DNA of 21,295 nucleotides from Bordetella parapertussis (GTDB lineage: Bacteria > Pseudomonadota > Gammaproteobacteria > Burkholderiales > Burkholderiaceae_C): positions 1 to 21,295 of the forward strand of contig CAMDSU010000007.1 in assembly GCA_945907335.1 (NCBI GenBank), written 5' to 3'. The notes below the pieces were generated by a model. The model saw only the letters and a list, made by a program, of their open reading frames with translations, was not told where the DNA came from and made no database searches. A program made the translations under genes and the position numbers. The stretch's first letter is position 1. Each line of letters starts with the position of its first letter. Shown here in pieces: positions 8,650 through 21,289 of the stretch.

Positions 8650-9948
8650 TCAGAGTTTTCGCAAATCCATCACACGCTTGGCCTTGCCCTGGCTGCGCTC
8701 GATGGTGCCTTCGGCGCACAACTCGACCGATAAACTGCTGCCTATATAGGCCTTGGCGTCATGAACCAATGCGTTCGCCGCAGTCAATGCCTGGCTTGAA
8801 TCTACCGCCACACCTGCGCGAGTTTCTACCTTCACGGACAAGTTGTCCAACGGTCCAGACCGGGTCAACACACATTGGTAGTGCGCACTCAATGCGGGCT
8901 GTCGCAAGATCAATTCCTCAATTTGCGAAGGGAACACATTGACACCGCGAACAATCATCATGTCGTCACTGCGGCCCGTGATTTTTTCAATGCGCCGCAT
9001 GGTGCGAGCAGTGCCGGGCAATAAACGGGTGAGGTCCCGCGTTCGGTAACGGATGATGGGCATGGCTTCTTTGGTGAGACTGGTGAACACCAATTCGCCC
9101 CACTCCCCTTCAGCAACAGGTTCACCGGTGTTGGGATCAATGATCTCCGGGTAAAAATGGTCTTCCCATACCGTGGGGCCGTCCTTGGTCTCAATACATT
9201 CGCTGGCAACGCCTGGACCAATCACTTCTGATAAACCATAAATGTCTACCGCGTCTATGCCCATGCGTTTCTCAATATTGATACGCATGTCATTGGTCCA
9301 GGGTTCTGCGCCAAAAATTCCCAATCGCAAACTCACTGCTTGTGCAGGTATGCCTTGTCGCTCGAACTCATCGGCCAAGGCCAGCATATAACTCGGGGTG
9401 ACCATGATGATGTCAGGCTTGAAGTCGTGAATCAATTGCACCTGTCTTTCAGTTTGCCCACCACCGAAAGGCACAACGGTGAGGCCCAATTTTTCTGCGC
9501 CGTAATGTGCACCCAGTCCGCCGGTGAACAAACCATACCCGTAACTGATGTGCACGGTGTCTCCCGGGCGTGCACCAGCAGCACGGATACTGCGGGCCAC
9601 ACACTGCGACCACGTGTCGATGTCGTTCAAGGTGTAGCCGACCACCGTAGGTTTTCCCGTGGTACCGCTTGAAGCATGTATGCGGGCGAGTTGTGCACGG
9701 GGAACCGCAAACATGCCAAAGGGATAACTGTCGCGTAAATCTGCTTTTGTGGTGAAGGGAAACTTAGACAGGTCCGACAAGTGACGGCAATCAGTAGGAT
9801 GCAACCCCGCTGCATCAAACTTCGCCCGATAGACTGGCGAATGCGTATAAGCATGCATCAAACTTGAGCGAAGTCGTTGCAATTGCAGTGCACGCAACTC
9901 ATCAATGCTGGCTTTTTCAATCGGCTCTAAGGGAAAAGCTTTGTTCAT
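8650..9948 (-). CDS. paaK: Phenylacetate-CoA ligase
   Basis: PaaK activates phenylacetate to phenylacetyl-CoA with ATP, the entry step of aerobic phenylacetate catabolism. The 432 residues match the family. The AMP-binding loop is ASSGTTGKP (92-100), and further motifs are YGYGLFTGGLGAHYG, the adenine-site YGLSEVIGPG, and RTRDLTRLLPG with the C-terminal lid region (RSDDMMIVRGVNVFPSQIEE). The last residues AKRVMDLRKL are typical. The N-terminus lacks the extra domain seen in other AMP ligases, as expected for PaaK. It overlaps paaI by four bases and is the last gene of paaG-paaI-paaK. Its 3' end faces the M61 gene with only seven bases between stops, so readthrough antisense transcription is possible. 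Confidence 0.96.
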   Translation of the reverse strand: MNKAFPLEPIEKASIDELRALQLQRLRSSLMHAYTHSPVYRAKFDAAGLHPTDCRHLSDLSKFPFTTKADLRDSYPFGMFAVPRAQLARIHASSGTTGKPTVVGYTLNDIDTWSQCVARSIRAAGARPGDTVHISYGYGLFTGGLGAHYGAEKLGLTVVPFGGGQTERQVQLIHDFKPDIIMVTPSYMLALADEFERQGIPAQAVSLRLGIFGAEPWTNDMRINIEKRMGIDAVDIYGLSEVIGPGVASECIETKDGPTVWEDHFYPEIIDPNTGEPVAEGEWGELVFTSLTKEAMPIIRYRTRDLTRLLPGTARTMRRIEKITGRSDDMMIVRGVNVFPSQIEELILRQPALSAHYQCVLTRSGPLDNLSVKVETRAGVAVDSSQALTAANALVHDAKAYIGSSLSVELCAEGTIERSQGKAKRVMDLRKL

Positions 9949-10385
9949 GGTGTCACCACTTGGCCTGGTATTTGTGCACTTTTCCCTCTGAAAAGCGCAA
10001 TCACTTCATCATGCTGGTTACGCACCGACATGTCATACACCCCATGGCGACCGCTGAGTACCTGCTCTTGGCCAGTGCAGGTCAGCACATCGTCCAATTT
10101 CGCTGGCTTTAAAAATTCGATGCTGGCTGCCGCAGCCACCGCATTGTGGTTATGGCTGTTGCAAGCAAATGCAAATGTGGAATCAGCCAATGTAAAGATG
10201 AAGCCACCGTGGCAAATCCCATGCCCATTCAAATGCAAGGCCCGCACCTGCATGCGCATACGCGCATGACCGGGCGCACATAACAGCAATTCCATGCCCA
10301 TGGTGTCTTTGGAGGCGACATCGGAGGCGAACATGGTGTTGCCAACCATCGTGGCCAGCGCCTCAGCGCTGTTGGGAAAAGACAT
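9945..10385 (-). CDS. paaI: Hydroxyphenylacetyl-CoA thioesterase PaaI
   Basis: PaaI is a hotdog-fold tetrameric thioesterase that hydrolyses ring-hydroxylated phenylacetyl-CoA and so frees CoA from dead-end intermediates. The 146-residue protein carries the diagnostic stretch NGHGICHGGFIFTLADS (53-69), with Asp68 in the position of the catalytic aspartate and the HGG turn at 59-61, followed by FAFACNS. It sits three bases after paaG and overlaps paaK by four bases, which makes coordinated expression very likely. No feature is missing or unusual. Confidence 0.95.
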   Translation of the reverse strand: MSFPNSAEALATMVGNTMFASDVASKDTMGMELLLCAPGHARMRMQVRALHLNGHGICHGGFIFTLADSTFAFACNSHNHNAVAAAASIEFLKPAKLDDVLTCTGQEQVLSGRHGVYDMSVRNQHDEVIALFRGKSAQIPGQVVTP

Positions 10386-10388
10386 GGC

Positions 10389-11183
10389 TTACTGTCCCGT
10401 GAATCGCGCGGGGCGTTTTTGCAGAAATGCACTCACGCCTTCGATGTAATCATGGGTTTTCCCCATGGCAGATTGGGTATCTCTTTCCACATCAAGTTGC
10501 TGGTTCAAGCTGCGCGTTCCCGCTTCACGCAACAGTGAACGAGTGGCCACCAAAGCTTGGGTAGGCATGGCAGCCAAGCGTGTGGCCATTTCCATGGAAG
10601 CCGCCACACAATCGTCTGCGACCTCCCAAATCATTCCCCATTCTTTGGCTTGGGCGGCAGGCAATTTATCGCCAGTCATGGCCAATGCCATGGCACGCGC
10701 CAAACCTAATCGCTCCACCAAAAACCAACTGCTGCCAGCGTCAGGTATCAAACCGATTTTGCTGAATGCTTGAATGAAGCTCGCACCCGGGGCGGCAATT
10801 GCAATATCGCAAGTCATTGCCAAAGAAGCACCGGCACCAGCAGCGACACCATTGACCGCAGCGATCGTTGGCATACGCAACTGTTGCAAGCGACGCGCGG
10901 TCGGATTGAAAGCCTGATCAATCACCGGGCCGGGGTCTGCGCGTTCCACCAAGTCAGGGCCTTCAGCAAAATCGAATTCAGCCAAATCTGCCCCGGCACA
11001 AAAACCACGGCCTGCGCCAGTAATCACCAAGGCGCGAATGGATTTATCAGCCTCAGCTGTATCCAAGGCAGCCCATAAATCATGGTGCATACGTCGGGTA
11101 AAGCTGTTGAGTGCCTGCGGTCGGTTCAAGGTCAGCTTTGCCACGCTTCCTTGGGCTTCATATAAAACAGTGTTTTCGCTCAT
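10389..11183 (-). CDS. paaG: Ring-1,2-epoxyphenylacetyl-CoA isomerase (oxepin-CoA forming)
   Basis: PaaG is a crotonase-family isomerase that converts the 1,2-epoxide of phenylacetyl-CoA to oxepin-CoA and later shifts a double bond. I set the start at 11183 (MSENTVLYEA) because AAAGGAGA (11189-11196) sits ideally upstream; an in-frame ATG at 11252 would add 23 unrelated residues. Over 264 residues it shows the oxyanion-hole motifs FCAGADLAEF (61-70) and GVAAGAGASLAM (112-123). Asp148 in GLIPDAGSS is the position of the catalytic aspartate, while the Glu typical of hydratases is absent, as expected for the isomerase. It is the first gene of paaG-paaI-paaK. The epoxidase genes paaABCDE and paaZ are not in the window. 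Confidence 0.92.
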   Translation of the reverse strand: MSENTVLYEAQGSVAKLTLNRPQALNSFTRRMHHDLWAALDTAEADKSIRALVITGAGRGFCAGADLAEFDFAEGPDLVERADPGPVIDQAFNPTARRLQQLRMPTIAAVNGVAAGAGASLAMTCDIAIAAPGASFIQAFSKIGLIPDAGSSWFLVERLGLARAMALAMTGDKLPAAQAKEWGMIWEVADDCVAASMEMATRLAAMPTQALVATRSLLREAGTRSLNQQLDVERDTQSAMGKTHDYIEGVSAFLQKRPARFTGQ

Positions 11184-11281
11184 TTTTGTCTCCTTTGGGG
11201 ATAATTTAACACCGCACTTTAAAAATCCATCCTTGGTTATAGTTGCCCGCATCTTTAACAGCGTTTGAGCAGGGTTTTTTC
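11184..11281. promoter_or_regulatory. Divergent promoter region paaG / enoyl-CoA hydratase operon
   Basis: This 98-base non-coding gap separates two divergent catabolic operons, so both promoters should lie here. On the plus strand TATAGT (11238-11243) is a good -10 candidate, 38 bases before the hydratase ATG, but the hexamer 17 bases upstream of it is a poor -35. This would suit an activator-dependent promoter. The paaG ribosome-binding site is at 11189-11196. I see no long palindrome of the ACCGN(n)CGGT type that could be assigned to a PaaR-like repressor. Confidence 0.4.
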
Positions 11282-12061
11282 ATGGCATACGAATTCATCA
11301 ACACACATATTGAGGCCGACAAAGTTGGAGTCATCACCCTCAACCGTCCGAAGCAATTGAATGCATTGAGTCCGGATTTGATGGTCGAACTCGGCCACGC
11401 ACTCACTGCATTCGATGCCAATGAAAGCATTGGCTGCATCATCATCACGGGCAGCGAAAAGGCATTTGCCGCGGGCGCAGACATTGGCGCAATGGCCACC
11501 TATTCATTTGCCGATGTGTACAAAAACGACTACATCACCAAGCACTGGGAAACCATACGCAGTATTCGCAAGCCAGTCATCGCTGCTGTCAGTGGGTTTG
11601 CGTTGGGTGGCGGATGCGAACTTGCCATGATGTGCGACTTCATCATTGCCGCTGACAATGCGCGCTTTGGTCAACCAGAAATCAAACTCGGCATCATTCC
11701 GGGTGCCGGTGGCACACAACGCTTGCCACGTGCGGTGGGCAAAGCCAAAGCCATGGATTTGGTGCTGACAGGTCGCATGATGAATGCCGAAGAAGCAGAA
11801 CGCGCTGGACTGGTCAGTCGCATCGTCGCCATAGACAAATTGATGGAAGAAACCCTCGGTGCAGCTTTGGCTATTTGCAGCTATTCACAGATAGCCGTTA
11901 TGGCCGCCAAAGAATCGGTGAACCGCTCATTTGAAAGCGGTCTGAGTGACGGCGTGATGTTCGAGCGTCGTATTTTTCACGCATTGTTTGCCACGCAAGA
12001 CCAAAAAGAAGGCATGGATGCCTTTGTCAACAAGCGCGCCGCAAACTTCAAACACCTGTAA
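11282..12061 (+). CDS. Enoyl-CoA hydratase (crotonase family)
   Basis: This 259-residue crotonase-fold enzyme probably adds water across a 2-enoyl-CoA. Both catalytic glutamates of true hydratases are present: Glu113 in [11 protein letters not shown] and Glu133 in [19 protein letters not shown]. The oxyanion-hole glycines lie in [11 protein letters not shown] (61-71) and ALGGG (107-111). The start ATG at 11282 gives [10 protein letters not shown]; a TTG 39 bases upstream would add an unrelated leader. It could serve as PaaF for the divergent phenylacetate genes, or as the first gene of the plus-strand operon, since the next gene begins 19 bases downstream with its own AGGAG site. The sequence is too general to choose a substrate. 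Confidence 0.92.
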
Positions 12062-12080
12062 ACCCAGATAGGAGCAAGCA

Positions 12081-13103
12081 ATGACCGCACATGACAGCCA
12101 GCAAAATGCAGCTCAAAAAAACAGTTACTTGGTCTTGAAGTCATTGGCAGGTTTAGTGCTTGTATTGGCCGGCTTGTTTTTTTTAGGCCCTGTCAATGAA
12201 TTCGGTTCTGACACACCTAGCGCCAGAGAGCCGCTGCCTACCTCTTTGGCTGAGTTAGACAACTGGCTGCAAACCAGCGAATCACGTTTTGAAAATTTAC
12301 GCCCCGGCACTGCAAAAGGTGTGGTGTGGGCGGCACCTGACAAACAAAAAACCCCTTGGTCTGTGGTTTATATCCATGGCTTTTCTGCCTCACGGTTAGA
12401 AACCGCCCCGTTGGCGGATCAAGTTGCCAAAGCATTAGGGGCGAATTTGTTCTATACCCGCCTGAGTGGTCATGGCTTATCAGGCCAAGCCATGGGCGAA
12501 GCGACCGCACAAGATTGGATGGCTGATACGCTTGAGGCGGTTCGCATAGGGGCTACGCTGGGTGACAAAGTCTTGGTCATCAGTTGTTCAACAGGCTCTA
12601 CATTGTCAACTTGGTTAGGCACCACGCCACAAGCCTCTGCAGTGAATGCATTTGTGTTTATCTCACCCAACTACGGTTTGAAAAACAAAATGTCCGAGTT
12701 GATCAACGCTCCCTGGGGCCAACATATTGCGACAGCCGTTTCAGGCGACACCATTCGCTATGAACAAACCGACCCGAGGGAAATCGCGGGTTGGACCGGC
12801 ACATACCCCACCAAAGCCCTCTTCCCCATGATGGCGCTGGTAAAAAAAGTCAGAGACAGCGATTTGTCTGCTTTCCAGACACCGGTGTTTGTGCTTTACA
12901 GCGCAGCCGATCAAACCGTTGACCCTGTACAAATCAAAGCCACATTTGCACGACTGGGCTCAAAGAAAAAATCCATCGATGCCGTGACATACAGCCAAAG
13001 CAAAGGTCAACATGTGCTGGCTGGTGACATACGCGACCCGCAATCGGTAGCACCCATGGCCGAATCCATCATCAAATGGACAGAAACTCTGCACACCCCA
13101 TGA
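12081..13103 (+). CDS. Membrane-anchored alpha/beta hydrolase
   Basis: This 340-residue hydrolase has one N-terminal hydrophobic segment (about 16-36) after a short stretch with lysines, so it is probably anchored with the catalytic domain outside the inner membrane. The fold markers are the oxyanion-hole HGF (99-101), the nucleophile elbow SCSTG with Ser170, an acid at Asp277 in YSAADQTVDP, and His311 in KGQHVLAGD. The elbow has Ser instead of Gly in its first position (SxSxG rather than GxSxG). It may cleave an ester or amide bond. N-formylmaleamate deformylases of nicotinate degradation share the fold, but they are smaller and soluble, so I do not transfer that name. It overlaps the next gene by four bases. 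Confidence 0.85.
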   Translation: MTAHDSQQNAAQKNSYLVLKSLAGLVLVLAGLFFLGPVNEFGSDTPSAREPLPTSLAELDNWLQTSESRFENLRPGTAKGVVWAAPDKQKTPWSVVYIHGFSASRLETAPLADQVAKALGANLFYTRLSGHGLSGQAMGEATAQDWMADTLEAVRIGATLGDKVLVISCSTGSTLSTWLGTTPQASAVNAFVFISPNYGLKNKMSELINAPWGQHIATAVSGDTIRYEQTDPREIAGWTGTYPTKALFPMMALVKKVRDSDLSAFQTPVFVLYSAADQTVDPVQIKATFARLGSKKKSIDAVTYSQSKGQHVLAGDIRDPQSVAPMAESIIKWTETLHTP

Positions 13104-14302
13104 CTGTATCGACGCCCCATGTTTTGATTGCAGGCGCCGGCCCAGTGGGCATGATGAGCGCGCTGGCCTTAGGTCGCGCGGGTATTCGCGTGACCTTGCT
13201 TGAATCTGCTGCTGGCTTGAACCGAGATTTGCGGGCTTCTACTTTTCATCCCCCCACACTTGATATGTTGGCCAAGTATGGGCTGACTTCATCACTGATT
13301 GAACAAGGACTGGTTGCCCGCTTTACGCAGCAACGCGACCGCACACAAGGCGTCATCGCTGAATTTGATTTGTCTCAGCTGACTGGGCTCACCGACCATC
13401 CGTTTCGATTGCAATGCGAACAATGGAAATTGACCGACCTGATCATGGCGCAGTTGACTCAACTACCGCATGTCTCTTTAGCGTTTGACAGCCGTGTAGA
13501 AAGCGTCTCACAAACTGAAAACAGCGTCAGCGTCAACGTAAGACAAGGCGATCAATTACAGACCTTGCACGGCGATTACCTGATTGGTGCTGATGGTGCA
13601 TGGAGTGCGGTTCGTACACAACTGGGAATTGCTTTCGAGGGCTATACCTATCCTGAAAGATTTTTGGTGGTGTCAACCCCATTTGAATATGCAGACCACA
13701 TGCCACAACTGTCTTATGTGAACTATTGCTCTGACCCCTATGAATGGTGTGTGCTGCTGAGGGTGCCTACCTTGTGGCGCGTGTTGTTTCCCACCAAAGA
13801 AGACGAAACAGACGAGCAGGTGTTGACTGACGAGTCCGTACAAACGCGGTTACAGCGTTTGTTGCCTCAATCAGAAGACTACACCGTGGTTCACCGTACG
13901 CTGTACAAAGTCCACCAACGTGTGGCGCAACATTTCCGCCAAGGACGTGTTTTTCTGGCAGGTGACGCTGCTCATATCAACAACCCGTTGGGTGGCATGG
14001 GCATGAACGGCGGTATTCACGATGCCATGAATCTTTGCGAAAAATTGATGGCTGTCCTTTTGCAAGGCGCACACACAGAAGTGCTGGATTTGTACGAAAA
14101 ACAGCGTCGCACCATCGCCATTGAATACATCAATGCCAGCACAGCCCGCAATAAAAAAGAAATTGAAGAACGCGACCCCGTGCTCAGACAAAAAAACCAT
14201 GATGAATTGCGCGCCCTTGCTGCTGATCCTGCGAGCAGCTTGGCCTACTTACGAAAAACTTCCATGATTGATGCGCTAGAACGCGCCAAGGCTTTGACAT
14301 GA
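13100..14302 (+). CDS. Group A FAD-dependent aromatic-ring monooxygenase
   Basis: This 400-residue single-component flavin hydroxylase is of the MhpA/PobA/NicC type; such enzymes use NAD(P)H and O2 to hydroxylate an aromatic or heteroaromatic ring. All three motifs are present: GAGPVG (12-17), the DG motif IGADGAWSAVR (162-172), and the GD motif GDAAHINNPLGGMGMNGG (288-305). The start ATG overlaps the previous stop by four bases; an in-frame ATG at 13076 lies inside the previous gene. It has no C-terminal thioredoxin-like domain, so it is shorter than phenol hydroxylases. In this operon it is the only oxygen-using enzyme and therefore the likely first oxidative step. The substrate is unknown. 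Confidence 0.9.
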   Translation: MTVSTPHVLIAGAGPVGMMSALALGRAGIRVTLLESAAGLNRDLRASTFHPPTLDMLAKYGLTSSLIEQGLVARFTQQRDRTQGVIAEFDLSQLTGLTDHPFRLQCEQWKLTDLIMAQLTQLPHVSLAFDSRVESVSQTENSVSVNVRQGDQLQTLHGDYLIGADGAWSAVRTQLGIAFEGYTYPERFLVVSTPFEYADHMPQLSYVNYCSDPYEWCVLLRVPTLWRVLFPTKEDETDEQVLTDESVQTRLQRLLPQSEDYTVVHRTLYKVHQRVAQHFRQGRVFLAGDAAHINNPLGGMGMNGGIHDAMNLCEKLMAVLLQGAHTEVLDLYEKQRRTIAIEYINASTARNKKEIEERDPVLRQKNHDELRALAADPASSLAYLRKTSMIDALERAKALT

Positions 14303-15204
14303 TCGAAAAAGGTTTAACCAAAATCAGCCATTCACAACGACGTGCATTGCTGCGCGAACGACTCTCAAAAGGTCGATTGGTAGTGGCGCCCGGTGTGTTT
14401 GAAATGGTGTCGGCAAAAATCGCTGACCGCATGGGTTTCGATGCTCTTTATATGACGGGTTATGGCACGGTAGCGTCTTATTTGGGGTTGCCAGACGCTG
14501 GCTTAGCCACCTATACAGACATGGTCAACCGGGTTTCCCAATTCACCAGCATCACAAACACTCCCTTGATTTGCGACGGCGACACAGGATACGGTGGCTT
14601 GTTGAATGTGATGCACACTGTGCGCGGCTATGAGGCTGCTGGTGCTTGTGCTATTCAGTTAGAAGACCAGGAATTCCCCAAAAAGTGCGGGCACATGCTG
14701 GGCAGGCGGGTGATTCCAATGCAAGACATGGTCGAAAAAATTCGCGTTGCAGTCGAAACCAGAGATGACCCCAATTTCCAGATCATCGCGCGAACAGATG
14801 CACGTACCACTTTGGGTTTGGACGAAGCATTGCGTCGTGCCGAAAGTTATGCGCGTGCAGGTGCAGATGTGTTGTTCGTGGAAAGCCCAGAGTCTGTGGA
14901 GGAGATGGAAAAAATCGCAAAAAGTATTGATGTGCCACTGGTCGCTAACATGGTTGAAGGCGGCAGAACACCAGTGCTCACCTATGAACAACTTGAAGCC
15001 ATCGGTTATGGGCTGGCCATCTTTCCTGCAACGGCTTTTCTGGCGGCAGGAGCGGCCATGCAAAGCGTCTACCAAACACTTCTGACCGACAAATCGAGCA
15101 CGAAGGTGACCCAGCCGCTTTATAACTTTCAGGAGTTTTCAAAATTGATGGGTTTTGATTGGGTAAGTCAGTTTGACCAGCAGTTCAAAACATCCGACCA
15201 ATGA
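14299..15204 (+). CDS. Isocitrate lyase/PEP mutase-superfamily C-C lyase
   Basis: This 301-residue TIM-barrel enzyme has the superfamily metal-site motif DGDTGYGG (93-100), Glu122-Asp123 in QLEDQ, and IARTDAR. Crucially it has KKCGH (128-132) with Cys130, the general acid of isocitrate, methylisocitrate and 2,3-dimethylmalate lyases. PEP mutases and carboxyphosphonoenolpyruvate mutases lack this motif. A retro-aldol/Claisen cleavage of a 2-substituted malate-like acid, giving pyruvate or glyoxylate plus a carboxylate, is thus more likely than phosphonate chemistry. The length fits PrpB or dimethylmalate lyase rather than full isocitrate lyase. It overlaps the monooxygenase gene by four bases. 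Oxaloacetate hydrolase or decarboxylase activity is an alternative within this clade. Confidence 0.88.
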   Translation: MIEKGLTKISHSQRRALLRERLSKGRLVVAPGVFEMVSAKIADRMGFDALYMTGYGTVASYLGLPDAGLATYTDMVNRVSQFTSITNTPLICDGDTGYGGLLNVMHTVRGYEAAGACAIQLEDQEFPKKCGHMLGRRVIPMQDMVEKIRVAVETRDDPNFQIIARTDARTTLGLDEALRRAESYARAGADVLFVESPESVEEMEKIAKSIDVPLVANMVEGGRTPVLTYEQLEAIGYGLAIFPATAFLAAGAAMQSVYQTLLTDKSSTKVTQPLYNFQEFSKLMGFDWVSQFDQQFKTSDQ

Positions 15205-15848
15205 ACATGAACCGTGACGATATTTACCGCAGACAAGGGCTGGGCGACACCTCGGGCGTGGGTCAGCGTTGTGGTTTGATTGTGGTGGACTTCGTCAACG
15301 GATTTGTAGATATCAATCAACTGGGTGGGCCGCATATTGAAGCTGCAGCCCATGCTAGCGTCCCGCTGTTGCATGCATTTCGTCACATGCAATTGCCTGT
15401 GGCACACACCCGCGTGGTGTTTGCAGAAGACGGCTCAGACATCAACGTATTTGCCCAACGCATCAAACCATTACAGCGCTTAACTGAGGATGCGCACAGT
15501 TCGAAAATTGTCCCCTTTTTGCAACCCGTTGTAGGCGAATTGGTGGTGCGCAAACAAACTGCCTCGGCATTCTTCAACACACCTTTGGCTGCTTGGTTGC
15601 ATTTGCATGGTGTCGATACTGCTGTGGTCGTCGGTTGCACCACCAGCGGCTGTGTCCGGGCCACCGTGGTGGATGCCATGCAACACAACTTTCGCACGGT
15701 TGTGGTCAGCGACTGTGTAGGGGATAGAGCCACAGAGCCGCACGATGCCAACTTGTTTGACATGCAACAAAAATATGCAGATGTCATGTCGCGCGACTTG
15801 TTGATCGAATCACTTTTTTCTACACGCAAAGGCCAAGCACATGACTGA
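15201..15848 (+). CDS. Isochorismatase-family amidohydrolase (N-carbamoylsarcosine amidase/maleamate amidase-like)
   Basis: This 215-residue cysteine hydrolase probably removes ammonia from an amide or carbamoyl group. The catalytic triad of the family is visible: Asp30 in LIVVDFVNGF, Lys118 in VVRKQTASAF, and nucleophile Cys151 in GCTTSGCVRATVVDA. The GCTTSGCVR phrase is the form shared by N-carbamoylsarcosine amidase and maleamate amidase (NicF) and differs from true isochorismatases, which lack the cysteine. The start overlaps the lyase gene by four bases, with a second ATG six bases later. Its presence implies that the pathway substrate or an intermediate contains an amide or a ring nitrogen, unless the enzyme acts on another bond. 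Confidence 0.9.
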   Translation: MNMNRDDIYRRQGLGDTSGVGQRCGLIVVDFVNGFVDINQLGGPHIEAAAHASVPLLHAFRHMQLPVAHTRVVFAEDGSDINVFAQRIKPLQRLTEDAHSSKIVPFLQPVVGELVVRKQTASAFFNTPLAAWLHLHGVDTAVVVGCTTSGCVRATVVDAMQHNFRTVVVSDCVGDRATEPHDANLFDMQQKYADVMSRDLLIESLFSTRKGQAHD

Positions 15849-16584
15849 TCATCTTGCGTATCGAAAAAAGTTTGGCACGCTGGGGCCATCGACCAACACA
15901 GTGGTGCAACCCGACTTCGACGATTTGCGCCCCGCTGGCGTGACCAACCACTACAGCCGAATTGCCATTCCGAACGACCCGGTCAACGATGACGCCAGTT
16001 TTTTGCGCTTGGTCGACAACATCAACCTTGCCACATTGGATGCGGTGGATATTTTGCGCTCATGCGAGATGGATTATTTGGTGATGGGCATGTCTGCCGC
16101 CACCTTTTGGAATGGCAGAAGTGGCGCCGAAAAATATTTACAGAACATGACCGAGCGCGCAGGTGTGGGCGTCTCTTGCGGTTCATTTGCCACAGAAACT
16201 GCACTCAACACGCTCGGGGTCAAACGCATTGCTTTCATGTCTCCCTATTTTGAAGTCGCCAATGCACAAGTCAAAAGGTTTTACCAAGATTGTGGCTTTA
16301 CGGTAGTACGTGATGTGTGTTTGAAAAGACCCAGTCCGGTTCAAATCGCTCACACCACAGATGCAATCTGCCGACAAGCCATCAAAGAAATTGATGGAGA
16401 TGATGTGGACGCTATTGTTCAAGTCGGTACCAACTTATCGATGATTCGATTGGCTGCTGCGGCAGAACTCTTTTTGGGTAAACCGGTCATTGCCATCAAT
16501 ACGGCCACCTATTGGCATGCGCTGCGTGCCTGCGGGATCCCAGATAAACGCAGTGGCTTTGGCAGTTTGCTGGAACACCATTGA
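15841..16584 (+). CDS. Asp/Glu racemase-superfamily protein (maleate isomerase/arylmalonate decarboxylase-like), cysteine-less at both usual sites
   Basis: This 247-residue two-domain protein resembles maleate cis-trans isomerases and arylmalonate decarboxylases. It has the GTLGPSTNTVVQPDFDDL start (12-29), LGVKRIAFMSPYF (125-137) and PVIAINTATYWHAL (215-228). Members normally use a cysteine near the end of each of two strands; maleate isomerase has both and arylmalonate decarboxylase only the second. Here the first site reads VMGMSAATFW (81-90) and the second AIVQVGTNLSM (191-201), so neither has Cys. The nearest cysteines are Cys75 and Cys113 (VSCGS). Racemase or isomerase chemistry by the usual two-thiol mechanism is therefore doubtful. 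The gene overlaps the amidase gene by eight bases. Confidence 0.82.
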   Translation: MTDHLAYRKKFGTLGPSTNTVVQPDFDDLRPAGVTNHYSRIAIPNDPVNDDASFLRLVDNINLATLDAVDILRSCEMDYLVMGMSAATFWNGRSGAEKYLQNMTERAGVGVSCGSFATETALNTLGVKRIAFMSPYFEVANAQVKRFYQDCGFTVVRDVCLKRPSPVQIAHTTDAICRQAIKEIDGDDVDAIVQVGTNLSMIRLAAAAELFLGKPVIAINTATYWHALRACGIPDKRSGFGSLLEHH

Positions 16585-16587
16585 AAC

Positions 16588-16592
16588 AAGGA
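16588..16592 (+). promoter_or_regulatory. Ribosome-binding site deciding the Bug receptor start
   Basis: AAGGA lies six bases before the ATG at 16599. This supports 16599 over the in-frame TTG at 16581, which would overlap the previous stop but has no Shine-Dalgarno sequence and would place six extra residues before the signal peptide. Confidence 0.7.
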
Positions 16593-16598
16593 CTCTAC

Positions 16599-17573
16599 AT
16601 GTCGTTCACACGATTGATCCACTGGACATCGATACTTGCTATTGCGTGCTCAACCGGTTTTGTGGGTGCACAAACTTTTCCGGCCAAACCTATCAAACTG
16701 GTTATTCCCGCAACCACTGGCACTTCAGATGTGATTGCCCGCGCCTTAGCCCCTCGGTTGTCGAGCGTCTTGGGTCAAAGCATTGTGGTGGAGCAAATGC
16801 CCGGTGCTGGCACCAATATAGGCAATCACTTTGTCGCCAAATCTGCACCAGATGGCTACACGCTTTTGATCAATGGCTTACCGTTGGTCACTAACCTCGC
16901 GCTGTATTCGCAACTGCCTTACAACCCCATGACCGATCTCATACCTGTGATTGGTTTGGCCGAGGTCAATAATGTGATCACGGTTCACCCATCGCTGGGT
17001 GTGCAGACTTTGAAGGATCTGGTGCAATTGGCCAAGACCAAACCCGGCCAATTGAATTACGGCTCTCCAGGTGCCGGCAGCTCCGGGCATTTGTCAGCTG
17101 AAATGCTGGGGTTGAAAACCGGCGCACTCATGGTGCATCTCCCTTACAAAGGGAACTCGCAAGCCACCATGGATTTGTTGCGTGGCGAATTACAAGTCGG
17201 CTTCATGAACCTGCCCATGGCTTTGCCCCAAGTCAAAGCAGGCAAGCTCAAAGCACTGGCAGTCACCGGCGCCAAGCGTTCAAAACTGTTGCCTTATGTG
17301 CCCACTGTTGCGGAAGCCTTGGGCATGCCAGACTTCGAACTGACCGCGTGGTTTGTCATCATGGCGCCAGCCAAAACACCTCCCCATGTGATTGCTCTAT
17401 TGAACAAAGAGATAGACAAAATTTTGAAAGACCCTGACTTTGTGGAAAAAATTCACAATGCCGGTGCAGAAGTCATCGGAGGCAGTGCCGCTTCTTTTGA
17501 ATCGCGCATGAAAAAGGATGCGGCGCGTTTAGGCGAGTTGATCAAGCTCGCGGGCACCAAAGCAGAGCCATGA
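16599..17573 (+). CDS. Bug/TctC-family periplasmic solute-binding protein
   Basis: This 324-residue extracytoplasmic receptor belongs to the tripartite tricarboxylate transporter family, expanded in Burkholderiales, whose members bind carboxylates, amides or aromatic acids. A signal peptide is clear, with cleavage probably in FVGA-QTFPAKPIK. Family motifs follow: IKLVIPATTGTSDVIARALAP, VVEQMPGAGTNIG, VAKSAPDGYTLL, NYGSPGAGSSGHLSAEML, HLPYKGNSQATMDLLRGE and FVIMAPAKTPP. No membrane subunits (TctA/TctB) are encoded in the window, as is common for these orphan receptors. Its place between the catabolic enzymes and the CoA ligase suggests it delivers the pathway substrate or a related carboxylate. 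It overlaps the next gene by four bases. Confidence 0.93.
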   Translation: MSFTRLIHWTSILAIACSTGFVGAQTFPAKPIKLVIPATTGTSDVIARALAPRLSSVLGQSIVVEQMPGAGTNIGNHFVAKSAPDGYTLLINGLPLVTNLALYSQLPYNPMTDLIPVIGLAEVNNVITVHPSLGVQTLKDLVQLAKTKPGQLNYGSPGAGSSGHLSAEMLGLKTGALMVHLPYKGNSQATMDLLRGELQVGFMNLPMALPQVKAGKLKALAVTGAKRSKLLPYVPTVAEALGMPDFELTAWFVIMAPAKTPPHVIALLNKEIDKILKDPDFVEKIHNAGAEVIGGSAASFESRMKKDAARLGELIKLAGTKAEP

Positions 17574-19207
17574 TCGACTCACCCATTGTCAGCACCATGA
17601 TGCCGGTGCATTTATCGCTGAACCATTTCTTAGAACGTGCGGGTTTGCTGTTTGCTACCAATGAGGTCATTTCCAGGCGGCCTGACAAAAGCTACGTACA
17701 CCATACCTATGCAGATATTTACACACGCACCCGCCAACTGGCACAAGCGCTGTTGCAGTTGGGGCTGAAAAAAGGTGACCGTGTGGCCACCTTGTGCTGG
17801 AACCACCATGTGCACTTGGAATGCTATTTTGGTATTCCTGCGGCTGGCGGCGTGATGCACACGCTGAACCTGCGCTTGTCAGCGGACGAAATTGCATGGA
17901 TAGCCAACGATGCAAAAGACCGATTCTTGATTGTTGACGATGTGTTGTTGCCGTTACTCAACCAATTCAAAGACCAATGCCATTTTGAAAAAATCATCGT
18001 GGTGCCTTTCTCTGGACAAGCACACAATGGGTCGGCGCTGGACTATGAAACTTTGCTGTCGCAAACTGACACTTCTGATTTTCAATATGTGAAGCACCAT
18101 GAAGACGATCCCGTGTCTATGTGTTACACATCAGGCACGACTGGCAAACCCAAAGGCGTGGTGTATTCACACCGCTCCACGGTGCTGCATACCTTGGTGG
18201 GTTGTTTGGGTGATTTCTGGTCATTGAAAAGTACCGATGTGGTGTTTCCCGTTACCCCCATGTTTCATGCCAACAGCTGGGGCATCCCTTATGGCGCGAT
18301 GATGATGGGCGCCAAACTGGTGTTTCCCGGCCCACACCTGCACCCCGAGGACTTGCTCGATTGCATGCAATACGCGCCACCGACATTGGCGCTGGGTGTA
18401 CCCACCATTTGGATGGGATTGATACAAACCTACGAAGCTGCATTGCAAACACAGCCAAACCGCTGGCGCTTGCCCAAAGGTATGCGTAGTTTGGTGGGCG
18501 GTGCAGCAGTACCGCAAGCATTGATCAAGGCATTCGACAAACACGGTATCTGGATCATGCAAGGCTGGGGCATGACCGAAACATCTCCACTGTGTACGGT
18601 GTCCTACACCAAAGCAGAATTTGCCAACGCCACTGAAGATGAAAAATATCGACGCGCAGCCATGGCAGGTATGCCGGTTCCATTGGTTGACTTGCGTATC
18701 CGCGATGACAACGGCCTCGACGCAGCATGGGATGGTCAGCAAGTGGGTGAGATTCAAGTCAGCGGACCATTCATCACTGGCAGCTACCACCAAGTACCGG
18801 TCCAAGCCGATAAGTTCACAGACGATGGTTGGCTGCGCACCGGCGATGTTGCCAGTGTTGATGCGGCAGGTTTTGTGCGTATCACCGACCGAACCAAAGA
18901 CCTGATCAAGTCTGGCGGTGAATGGATCAGCTCAGTCGATTTAGAAAATGCTTTGATGGCGCATGCCACCATTGCCGAAGCTGCTGTGATCGCCATACCT
19001 GATGTCAAATGGAGCGAACGACCACTGGCCTGTCTGGTCTTAAAGCCTGGCGCAACACTAGATGCACAAGAACTTGGCAAGCATCTGCAAGCAATGGGGT
19101 TTGCCAAGTGGCAATTGCCAGACCGCTACGAATTACTGCCGCAAATTCCACGCACATCCACGGGTAAATTTTATAAATTGAAATTGCGTGAAATGTTCCC
19201 CTCCTGA
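17570..19207 (+). CDS. AMP-forming acyl-CoA ligase (medium/long-chain, AlkK-like)
   Basis: This 545-residue adenylate-forming ligase activates a carboxylic acid to its CoA thioester. The P-loop MCYTSGTTGKPKGVVYSH begins at residue 184. Other motifs are FPVTPMFHANSWGIPY, the adenine-site GWGMTETSP, DDGWLRTGDVASVDAAGFVRI and DRTKDLIKSGGEWIS. The C-terminal catalytic Lys is in IPRTSTGKFYK. It resembles AlkK-type ligases for medium or long chains, which have broad specificity. As the last gene of the operon, overlapping the receptor gene by four bases, it probably activates the pathway substrate or a late fragment, with the upstream enoyl-CoA hydratase acting after it. Confidence 0.92.
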   Translation: MIDSPIVSTMMPVHLSLNHFLERAGLLFATNEVISRRPDKSYVHHTYADIYTRTRQLAQALLQLGLKKGDRVATLCWNHHVHLECYFGIPAAGGVMHTLNLRLSADEIAWIANDAKDRFLIVDDVLLPLLNQFKDQCHFEKIIVVPFSGQAHNGSALDYETLLSQTDTSDFQYVKHHEDDPVSMCYTSGTTGKPKGVVYSHRSTVLHTLVGCLGDFWSLKSTDVVFPVTPMFHANSWGIPYGAMMMGAKLVFPGPHLHPEDLLDCMQYAPPTLALGVPTIWMGLIQTYEAALQTQPNRWRLPKGMRSLVGGAAVPQALIKAFDKHGIWIMQGWGMTETSPLCTVSYTKAEFANATEDEKYRRAAMAGMPVPLVDLRIRDDNGLDAAWDGQQVGEIQVSGPFITGSYHQVPVQADKFTDDGWLRTGDVASVDAAGFVRITDRTKDLIKSGGEWISSVDLENALMAHATIAEAAVIAIPDVKWSERPLACLVLKPGATLDAQELGKHLQAMGFAKWQLPDRYELLPQIPRTSTGKFYKLKLREMFPS

Positions 19208-19361
19208 ACTTCTGATTGAATAGCTATTGAATAGGTTATGTGGAGGAATACAAAGATTCTTAAGTTTTTGTATAGGTGTATTCGGTATTTACCCGTATAT
19301 TATTTTTATCGAAACGTTAAAAATTCTGTTTCAAACTTATTCAATCCCAAGGACCTCCACG
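19208..19361. other. AT-rich intergenic region with 11-base-period direct repeat
   Basis: This 154-base gap lies between the catabolic operon and a small exported protein. It contains two copies of ATTGAATAG (19215-19223 and 19226-19234) whose starts are 11 bases apart, roughly one helical turn, just after the ligase stop. The remainder is very AT-rich, with TATATT near 19296. No hairpin-plus-T-tract terminator is evident for the operon. A promoter for the next gene should lie here, but no convincing -35/-10 pair was found. Confidence 0.35.
19349..19353 (+). promoter_or_regulatory. Ribosome-binding site for the small exported protein
   Basis: AAGGA is eight bases before the ATG at 19362. It fixes the start directly before the signal peptide and argues against in-frame starts further upstream, such as 19227, which would put 45 unrelated residues ahead of it. 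Confidence 0.65.
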
Positions 19362-19772
19362 ATGAACAGCTTCCTGAAATCTTTTTTCGTCATTGCAATG
19401 ACTGGTTCATCGTTTGCGGCTCAAGCCTCTTGGGACGTGAGTGTCGCCTCCAACAACAATGAATACCTTTATGCATCAGCAGACTCATACGCAGCTGATG
19501 GCGACTTGCGTTTTGCTCGCCAAATGACCAGTTCTGCCACGCCAGATGCGAATGGCTTTTTGTATCTTGAAACCATTGCACAATTCAGCTGCACCAAAAA
19601 TGCCATTCAGGTGGTTAAAGCCACCGGCTTCAAAACTTGGGATGACAACGGCCAATCTGTTGACAGCCTTTTGGGCATGTGGCGCGCCGTGAAAAACGGC
19701 AGCAACGAGCAAGTCATGTTGAACAAACTTTGCAACACATCATTGGCCGACGCTTCCAAGTTCACCAACTAA
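19362..19772 (+). CDS. Small exported protein, possibly surface-adhesin-E-like
   Basis: This 136-residue protein has a clear signal peptide (MNSFLKSFFVIAMTGSSFAAQA, cleavage likely before Ser23-Trp24). The mature part of about 114 residues has two cysteines, Cys77 and Cys124, well placed for one disulfide in the periplasm or on the surface. A Trp just after cleavage, a Tyr/Asp-containing strand, a DG-turn followed by AR-Q, and an ETIAQFSC strand loosely recall the Adhesin_E domain found in many betaproteobacterial small exported proteins, but I hold this only weakly. No enzymatic motif is seen. A strong terminator follows its stop within 20 bases. Its function is unknown. Confidence 0.75.
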   Translation: MNSFLKSFFVIAMTGSSFAAQASWDVSVASNNNEYLYASADSYAADGDLRFARQMTSSATPDANGFLYLETIAQFSCTKNAIQVVKATGFKTWDDNGQSVDSLLGMWRAVKNGSNEQVMLNKLCNTSLADASKFTN

Positions 19773-20278: not shown

Positions 20279-21289
20279 TCACGAATAAAACTGTCCGCTC
20301 ACCCATGTGTAACTGGGTATTCCAATAAGTAGGTTCAATGGAAAAGTGATTCCCAACGACATTCCAATATAAAGAGATGGCTTCGCCTCAGGGACGGCGG
20401 TACGCAGTACAGCAGGAACCGCGATATATGACGCACTCGCCGCCAACACCATCAGCAAAGTCGCATCACCGCGAGAGACTTGGTTCAAAAGCGCAATCAC
20501 CAGCGCCAGTGCAGCATGCAATATCGGCGCCAAAACCGCATATATCAGCAAGCCAGGTGAGATACCTTTGAGTTGATGGACGCTTCTGGCCGTCATCAAA
20601 CCCATATCCAGCAAGAAAAATGCGAGCATGCCTTTGAATAAATCTCCCGAAAAAGGTTGCATCGCAGCCTTGCCTGTCTCTCCGGAAATAAAACCAACCA
20701 GCATGGCACCGAGCAACAACAATTGGGCACCATCCGTGAAAGATTCATGCAGTATTTTTTTAAATGAATGGCTCGGTCCTGAAGACGAACCAATCAGCAC
20801 AGTAACGCCGTTGTGAATCTGTAGATTCGATCGCGCAGATTGTTTCTGTCTGTGCGAATTGGCAAAAAACACAGCCAAGATGATGGCGGGAGATTCCATC
20901 AATGCCATGGCAGCCGCCATATGTCCGCCAAATGCAATGCTGTTGTTATCCAAGTATTGAACTGCCGTGACAAATGTCACAGCGCTGACCGAACCGTATG
21001 TCGCCGCCACTGCCGCCGCATCAAATCCCGACAAATATCTTCTCAACACGGCATACCCTATAAGCGGTATGACCACAGCAAGCGCAATGGCAGATCCCAA
21101 GCTGGTGGCCACCTCACGGGTGAAGCCTGAATGCGCCAACGCAAATCCACCTTTCAATCCCAAGGCCATCAACAGGTACAACGATAAAAAGCGTGAGATA
21201 GCGGATGGGATCTCTAGGTTGGATTTGACACTGGCGGCCAACACACCAAACACAAAAAATAAAATTGCCGGGTCAAGAAATACCTGCAT
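20279..21289 (-). CDS. sbtA: SbtA-family sodium-dependent bicarbonate permease
   Basis: This 336-residue integral membrane protein has about ten hydrophobic segments in two halves, the pattern of the SbtA (PF05982) family, which imports bicarbonate with sodium in cyanobacteria. Recognisable phrases are DPAILFFVFGVLAASVKSNL (6-25), SLYLLMALGLKGG, ATYGSVSAVTFVTA, and MALMESPAIILAV before a polar cytoplasmic loop (about 145-180). The second half has FFLLDMGLMTA and ASASYIAVPAV. The first-half motifs match SbtA well. In a heterotroph it may supply bicarbonate for anaplerosis, but the transported ion is not proven. No SbtB-like PII gene is in the window; it could lie just upstream, outside. The N-terminus is close to the usual start, six bases from the window edge, so the gene is probably complete. 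Confidence 0.85.
   Translation of the reverse strand: MQVFLDPAILFFVFGVLAASVKSNLEIPSAISRFLSLYLLMALGLKGGFALAHSGFTREVATSLGSAIALAVVIPLIGYAVLRRYLSGFDAAAVAATYGSVSAVTFVTAVQYLDNNSIAFGGHMAAAMALMESPAIILAVFFANSHRQKQSARSNLQIHNGVTVLIGSSSGPSHSFKKILHESFTDGAQLLLLGAMLVGFISGETGKAAMQPFSGDLFKGMLAFFLLDMGLMTARSVHQLKGISPGLLIYAVLAPILHAALALVIALLNQVSRGDATLLMVLAASASYIAVPAVLRTAVPEAKPSLYIGMSLGITFPLNLLIGIPSYTWVSGQFYS

Follow-up and report, generated by a model that had tools for sequence, protein, structure and literature searches.

The stretch of DNA analysed here, 21,295 nucleotides from Bordetella parapertussis (GenBank assembly GCA_945907335.1, contig CAMDSU010000007.1, positions 1 to 21,295 of the forward strand; hereafter the window), carries a conserved catabolic unit that consists of a flavin monooxygenase (FMO), an isocitrate-lyase-like C-C lyase (ICL), an isochorismatase-like amidase (ISO), a protein of the maleate isomerase/arylmalonate decarboxylase type (AMD, P0006) and a TctC/Bug receptor (TctC). 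An earlier note on this DNA described an eight-gene operon. All eight open reading frames (ORFs) are indeed in one direction, on the plus strand at 11282-19207, and the family calls of the note were correct at the fold level, but only the five genes named above recur widely. The unit is therefore smaller than eight genes, and the notion of a conserved route with no known counterpart is kept for five of the eight genes and given up for the full extent. Judged from sequence, the prospects are evenly balanced that the module degrades a small nitrogen-containing, probably ring-shaped compound via a half-amide and an alkylmalate.

The distribution of the module was examined by a profile scan of genome contigs with an AMD alignment, which gave at least 596 stretches (543 confirmed), and the best 80 loci were examined. 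At 38 of them the AMD was at least 67% identical to that of the window, and within 8 kb of it FMO was found in 31, ICL in 30, ISO in 34 and a TctC relative (identity of at least 30%) in 32. The order FMO, ICL, ISO, AMD was contiguous on one strand at 24 of the 38 loci. The nearest locus (L008) belongs to a pond Comamonadaceae metagenome-assembled genome (MAG), and its AMD is 96% identical to that of the window. Note that many loci come from related MAGs and are not independent events, and that some (L012, L020, L034) are truncated by the end of the contig, so that they start within the cluster. L043 and L057 were left out of one of the locus sets compared. Since TctC belongs to a large family, it is weaker evidence for the core than the other genes. 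Of the remaining 42 loci (AMD below 62%), 14 had FMO nearby, 9 had ICL and 7 had ISO; thus, the AMD family is wider than the module. The neighbourhood search that the earlier note had proposed for the central families found them together across Burkholderiales, and in a rearranged form also in other Pseudomonadota. Judging by the titles of the loci, the core is common among Burkholderiales of ponds and lakes and has counterparts in other Pseudomonadota, so that the substrate may be a common natural compound. Its carriers include freshwater bacteria related to Limnohabitans; among isolates, Limnohabitans sp. 2KL-1 and G3-2 and Pigmentiphaga kullae K24 have the core. Our searches of the open-licence PubMed Central (PMC) literature found no description of such an operon. 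When FMO was used as an independent bait in plasmids, 29 records were obtained at E 1e-40, and AMD matches adjoin FMO, by coordinates, in 7 of them.

The remaining three genes (ech, abh and FACL; Table 1) behave differently. An ech orthologue is present in 11 of the 12 core genomes searched (E 1e-90), apart from the core in all 11, and ech was rejected as a module gene for this reason; at the core it was found in one of the 38 loci (L008), with the contigs of L009 and L010 ending before its position. In the NCBIfam search, ech scored above the cut-off of the general enoyl-CoA hydratase model and below that of the PaaF model. In Limnohabitans 2KL-1 and G3-2, ech is divergent to paaG as in the window, on a contig other than that of the core, and in the other nine genomes neither paaG nor a core gene was found in the flanks (1.5 kb or less). 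It is likely that ech serves phenylacetate breakdown; this is not proved, because ech adjoins paaG in just 2 of 11 genomes and the flanks are short. The abh gene and a ligase orthologue (ligase identity, 90-95%) accompany the core in L008, L009 and L010 only (3/38). At L015, a non-orthologous ligase (30%) and a crotonase (28%) lie directly downstream of the core, so the ligase retains some weight, with CoA activation as a late step.

The AMD has the fold of the Asp/Glu racemase superfamily. In an alignment of 92 of the 96 AMD ORFs (after a length filter), both catalytic cysteines were missing in 81 of 81 AMD sequences; among the distant paralogues (n = 11), the two cysteines are kept in 10 and 9, respectively. 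The proton donor of arylmalonate decarboxylase is Cys188 (PMC4996985), and this position is glycine in all 81. On the NCBIfam model for arylmalonate decarboxylase, AMD scored 46 bits against a cut-off of 225. In view of the missing catalytic cysteines, AMD was rejected as a maleate isomerase, racemase or arylmalonate decarboxylase, and a racemase- or isomerase-type function of P0006 is not supported. A naming problem follows, as relatives of P0006 are labelled maleate isomerase or arylmalonate decarboxylase and the 81 sequences have the cysteines for neither reaction. In other settings, FMO is replaced beside AMD by a cupin and an oxygenase weakly similar to WelO5 (L002, L003, L043). At L049, L050 and L062, which are from Hyphomicrobium-type genomes and one unplaced Pseudomonadota MAG, AMD and a NicC-like hydroxylase (32-34% identical to NicC) are encoded divergently.

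The best structural match of ISO was 3ot4, which we take to be the maleamate amidase NicF, with 204 bits, compared with 133 bits on the next match, N-carbamoylsarcosine amidase. ISO is also 53-57% identical to three amidases that adjoin annotated 2,5-dihydroxypyridine dioxygenases. These similarities point to a maleamate-like intermediate. The version of ISO at L070 is only 37% identical; the step thus seems to be kept with the gene exchanged.

By both sequence and model, the closest group of FMO was that of PnpA and HspB, which hydroxylate the ring at a substituted position. The absence of 2-methyl-3-hydroxypyridine-5-carboxylate oxygenase from the 50 matches listed for FMO excludes nothing. 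FMO relatives (46% and 43%) occur in another recurrent set (L101, 4690-13673; L102, 4517-11846), whose further members are an amidohydrolase, a DUF4286 protein and a protein of the 'amino acid synthesis' family. ICL matched both the KKCGH-type signature and the profile of the isocitrate lyase/PEP mutase (phosphoenolpyruvate mutase) superfamily, and Lys128, Cys130, Gly131 and His132 were invariant in the 12 aligned core lyases. With a profile made from these 12 lyases, petal death protein, which prefers alkylmalates, scored 276 bits and 2,3-dimethylmalate lyase 241 bits. On the methylisocitrate lyase model ICL scored 280, below the cut-off of 354.

Partner genes were counted at 87 loci and the window with a rough ORF caller, and some antisense ORFs remain in these counts. 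LeuD-like genes were found in 10 and LeuC-like genes in 9, and at L046 another aconitase-family pair occupies the place of the hydratase. Genes similar to PuuE/polysaccharide deacetylase were found in 14, two kinds of short-chain dehydrogenase/reductase in 14 and 12, lactonase-like metallo-beta-lactamase-fold proteins in 12, and aldehyde dehydrogenases in 11. Liv permeases were present in 11-12, and 21 had the same kind of GntR gene. The PuuE-like partner fits allantoinase PuuE best, far below the cut-off (158 vs 425 bits); the PuuE-related family includes a cyclic imidase, according to the HxnM work (PMC9304392). Among the loci with AMD and a cupin/WelO5-like pair, L002 has LeuC/LeuD with ICL, and L003 and L043 have a CoA transferase with an HMG-CoA-lyase-like (hydroxymethylglutaryl-CoA-lyase-like) protein; this exchange suggests that the lower part of the pathway ends in the cleavage of a malate-type acid. 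In the 16 genomes with the core, a LeuC 72-100% identical to the query and a PuuE-like orthologue (82-100%) were each present in five, the genome of the query included. Genomes with the core also contain a second unnamed cluster (L108, 1-19801; G010:C16:34000-53800). It encodes an aconitase-family hydratase pair and a Liv ABC transporter, along with two isochorismatase-like proteins, four PuuE-like proteins, one hydantoin-racemase-like protein and one MmgE/PrpD protein, and at least three PuuE-like matches lie on one contig in 8 of the 16 genomes.

From the gene content we infer the following reactions and their order. The TctC receptor would bind a carboxylate outside the membrane, and FMO, like PnpA and HspB, would introduce a hydroxyl group at a ring position that carries a substituent. 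AMD, which lacks the cysteine chemistry of its family, may convert the FMO product by tautomerisation, ring opening or decarboxylation. ISO would then free ammonia from a maleamate-like half-amide, and the resulting diacid would be hydrated to an alkylmalate, by a dedicated LeuC/LeuD in some genomes and by a household or another enzyme in the window species. Finally, cleavage of the alkylmalate by ICL would yield a carboxylic acid together with a 2-oxo acid, for example pyruvate, and in the window species the ligase may activate the carboxylic acid to its CoA form.

Several results weigh against this scheme. With the profile of the 12 lyases, phosphonomutase scored 270 bits and methylisocitrate lyases 216-240 bits, and the profile scores of ICL do not settle the choice between alkylmalates and other substrates of the superfamily. 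The dedicated LeuC and the PuuE-like orthologue are confined to the five of 16 genomes each mentioned above. In the nearest relative of the window (G001, a 2.5-Mb MAG), the sole LeuC is 55% identical, with no second close one, and no PuuE-like orthologue was found (best match, 31%), so that hydration and imide opening are unproven there. At five other plasmid FMO loci (chosen by hand; FMO 39-51%), ICL was found in none, and four were without an AMD relative, the fifth (L104) having one of 25%.

A variant of the nicotinate/hydroxypyridine route, in which FMO would make a 2,5-dihydroxypyridine, a NicX-type enzyme encoded elsewhere would open the ring and ISO and AMD would act as NicF and NicE, agrees with the closeness of ISO to NicF and of FMO to HspB and with the NicX relative found in six of the 16 core genomes (four at 74-82%, two at 40%). 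We consider it distinctly unlikely, because no relative of NicX (2,5-dihydroxypyridine dioxygenase; E 1e-5) or of NicD (N-formylmaleamate deformylase; tblastn, E 1e-5) was found in the window or the 87 loci, a NicX relative was missing in 10 of the 16 genomes (E 1e-10), the nearest relative of the window among them, AMD is without both NicE cysteines and the lyase would be left without a role. It is also unlikely, though to a lesser degree, that no half-amide is involved and that the module serves a substrate class such as hydantoins or pyrimidines, with a ureido or carbamoyl compound as the substrate of ISO and oxaloacetate or methylisocitrate as that of ICL. The match of ISO to N-carbamoylsarcosine amidase, the fit of the PuuE-like partner to allantoinase PuuE, though far under the cut-off, and the oxaloacetate and methylisocitrate enzymes in the lyase superfamily speak for such a substrate; the higher score of ISO with the maleamate-type structure, the 9-10 loci at which the core adjoins a LeuC/LeuD-type hydratase and the score of ICL under the methylisocitrate lyase cut-off speak against it.

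A more specific proposal is the breakdown of monopyrroles from chlorophyll or haem, by way of a dialkylmaleimide, its half-amide, a dialkylmaleate and a dialkylmalate to pyruvate and a short acid. Four activities are required for such a route, those of imidase, half-amidase, hydratase and dialkylmalate lyase, and they match the set in the fuller loci, which carry an imidase-like gene, the amidase, a LeuC/LeuD-type hydratase and the lyase (all four in the genome of L038 and in the loci or genomes of L047 and L054). Here FMO, acting in the manner of HspB, would remove the side chain of an oxidised pyrrolinone and so produce the dialkylmaleimide, whose ring would be opened to the half-amide either by the PuuE-like imidase, in genomes that have one, or by the cysteine-free AMD. 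Ammonia would then be released by ISO, and the LeuC/LeuD-type hydratase and ICL would convert the diacid and split the dialkylmalate, with pyruvate as one product and butenoate, butyrate or glutarate (from methyl-vinyl, methyl-ethyl and haematinic rings) as the other, to be activated by the ligase. Many loci come from ponds and lakes by title, and maleimides and haematinic acid have been reported from senescent leaves and lake sediments, according to PMC7318184; that study's own leaves gave haematinic acid and no maleimides. In the window species, an imidase candidate of the PuuE-like type is missing, our searches of the open-licence PMC literature found no description of bacterial use, and we regard this proposal as highly improbable. 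If it were true, AMD would catalyse a type of reaction that is new for the Asp/Glu racemase superfamily. That the full eight-gene operon, ech and abh included, forms one pathway is very unlikely as well: the single direction, the short gaps, the whole order kept in L008 and the non-orthologous ligase and crotonase of L015 accord with it, but of the 38 loci only 3 have abh and the ligase orthologue and only 1 has ech, and ech orthologues lie away from the core in 11 genomes.

Table 1. Genes of the operon region in the window
Feature	Position	Strand	Assignment and role	Basis
paaK, thioesterase, paaG-like genes	8650..11252	-	divergent from ech; context	
ech	11282..12061	+	enoyl-CoA hydratase; probably outside module	general enoyl-CoA hydratase model above cut-off
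abh	12081..13103	+	alpha/beta hydrolase, hydrophobic N-terminal stretch; accessory	Pfam Hydrolase_4
FMO	13100..14302	+	single-component FAD monooxygenase, PnpA/HspB subgroup; core	
ICL	14299..15204	+	PEP-mutase/isocitrate-lyase superfamily lyase, KKCGH motif; core	
ISO	15201..15848	+	isochorismatase-fold amidase, maleamate amidase relative; core	
AMD (P0006)	15841..16584	+	maleate isomerase/arylmalonate decarboxylase fold, without catalytic cysteines; core	
TctC/Bug receptor	16581..17573	+	substrate-binding receptor; core, less specific	Pfam TctC
FACL	17570..19207	+	acyl-CoA ligase; accessory	

The ORFs are closely packed from 12081 onward. Overlaps of 4-8 bases had been reported at five junctions; the size range was correct, and the count is six (4, 4, 4, 8, 4 and 4 bases) when the start of FMO is taken at 13100 (an ATG at 13076 is likewise open) and that of TctC at the TTG at 16581 (an in-frame ATG follows six codons further). 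The ech-abh junction is a 19-base gap with no overlap. A scan for sigma-70-type promoters gave 3 sites (mean of shuffled sequences, 8.1) and a scan for terminators 12 (11.8), none above the shuffles in either case; the case for co-transcription thus comes from the gene packing alone. Further upstream, before the paa genes, are purH, dusB, ychF and a ubiH-like gene. After the operon, a small Adhesin_E-type protein is encoded at 19362-19772 (plus strand; the ORF list starts at a TTG at 19227, and the ATG is at 19362), followed by an Sbt_1-type transporter protein at 20279-21289 (minus strand), which likewise accompanies the operon at close range in L008, L009 and L010.

Among known systems, the nic pathway (nicCEDXF) resembles the module in its NicF-like amidase (53-57%), flavin hydroxylase and NicE-fold protein. 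However, FMO is 24% identical to NicC and AMD 25% to NicE, both NicE cysteines are replaced in AMD (the NicE of L105 and L106 keep both), and the module has an isocitrate-lyase-like lyase and neither NicX nor NicD. Identity with nic was ruled out on these grounds. The claim that four fold types are shared with nic is thus borne out strongly for the amidase only, FMO and AMD being distant and abh giving no match to NicD even with the E limit set to 10, and the gene set is, as had been stated, distinct from nic in having no 2,5-dihydroxypyridine dioxygenase and a C-C lyase. The nearest FMO relatives in sequence and model are HspB/NdpD of nicotine degradation and PnpA of 4-nitrophenol degradation; their pathways use a ring-cleaving dioxygenase, and none is present in the window. 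Arylmalonate decarboxylase, maleate isomerase and the Asp/Glu racemases differ from AMD in possessing the two catalytic cysteines.

The hxn pathway of Aspergillus nidulans is similar in having a PuuE-related cyclic imidase followed by an amidase; it is fungal and, in the part of PMC9304392 consulted, without this type of lyase, and the window lacks the imidase candidate. The lum cluster of Nocardioides, as far as the part of PMC12746152 consulted describes it, loosely resembles the accessory genes of L004 and L039 (hydrolases, a thiamine pyrophosphate enzyme, methyl oxidation), but uses Rieske and extradiol dioxygenases and has no counterpart of FMO-ICL-AMD. Identity with the lumichrome route was rejected, as the family searches found no Rieske or extradiol dioxygenase among the window ORFs of at least 150 amino acids. 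Anaerobic nicotinate fermentation includes steps of 2,3-dimethylmaleate hydratase and 2,3-dimethylmalate lyase, and is matched by the aconitase-family hydratase beside the isocitrate-lyase-family lyase in 9-10 loci. The module differs from it in occurring in aerobes (judged by the oxygenase), in its upstream amidase and in the window locus being without the hydratase. If the half-amide and alkylmalate scheme is true, the module would constitute an aerobic route to an alkylmalate with no ring-cleaving dioxygenase at the locus.

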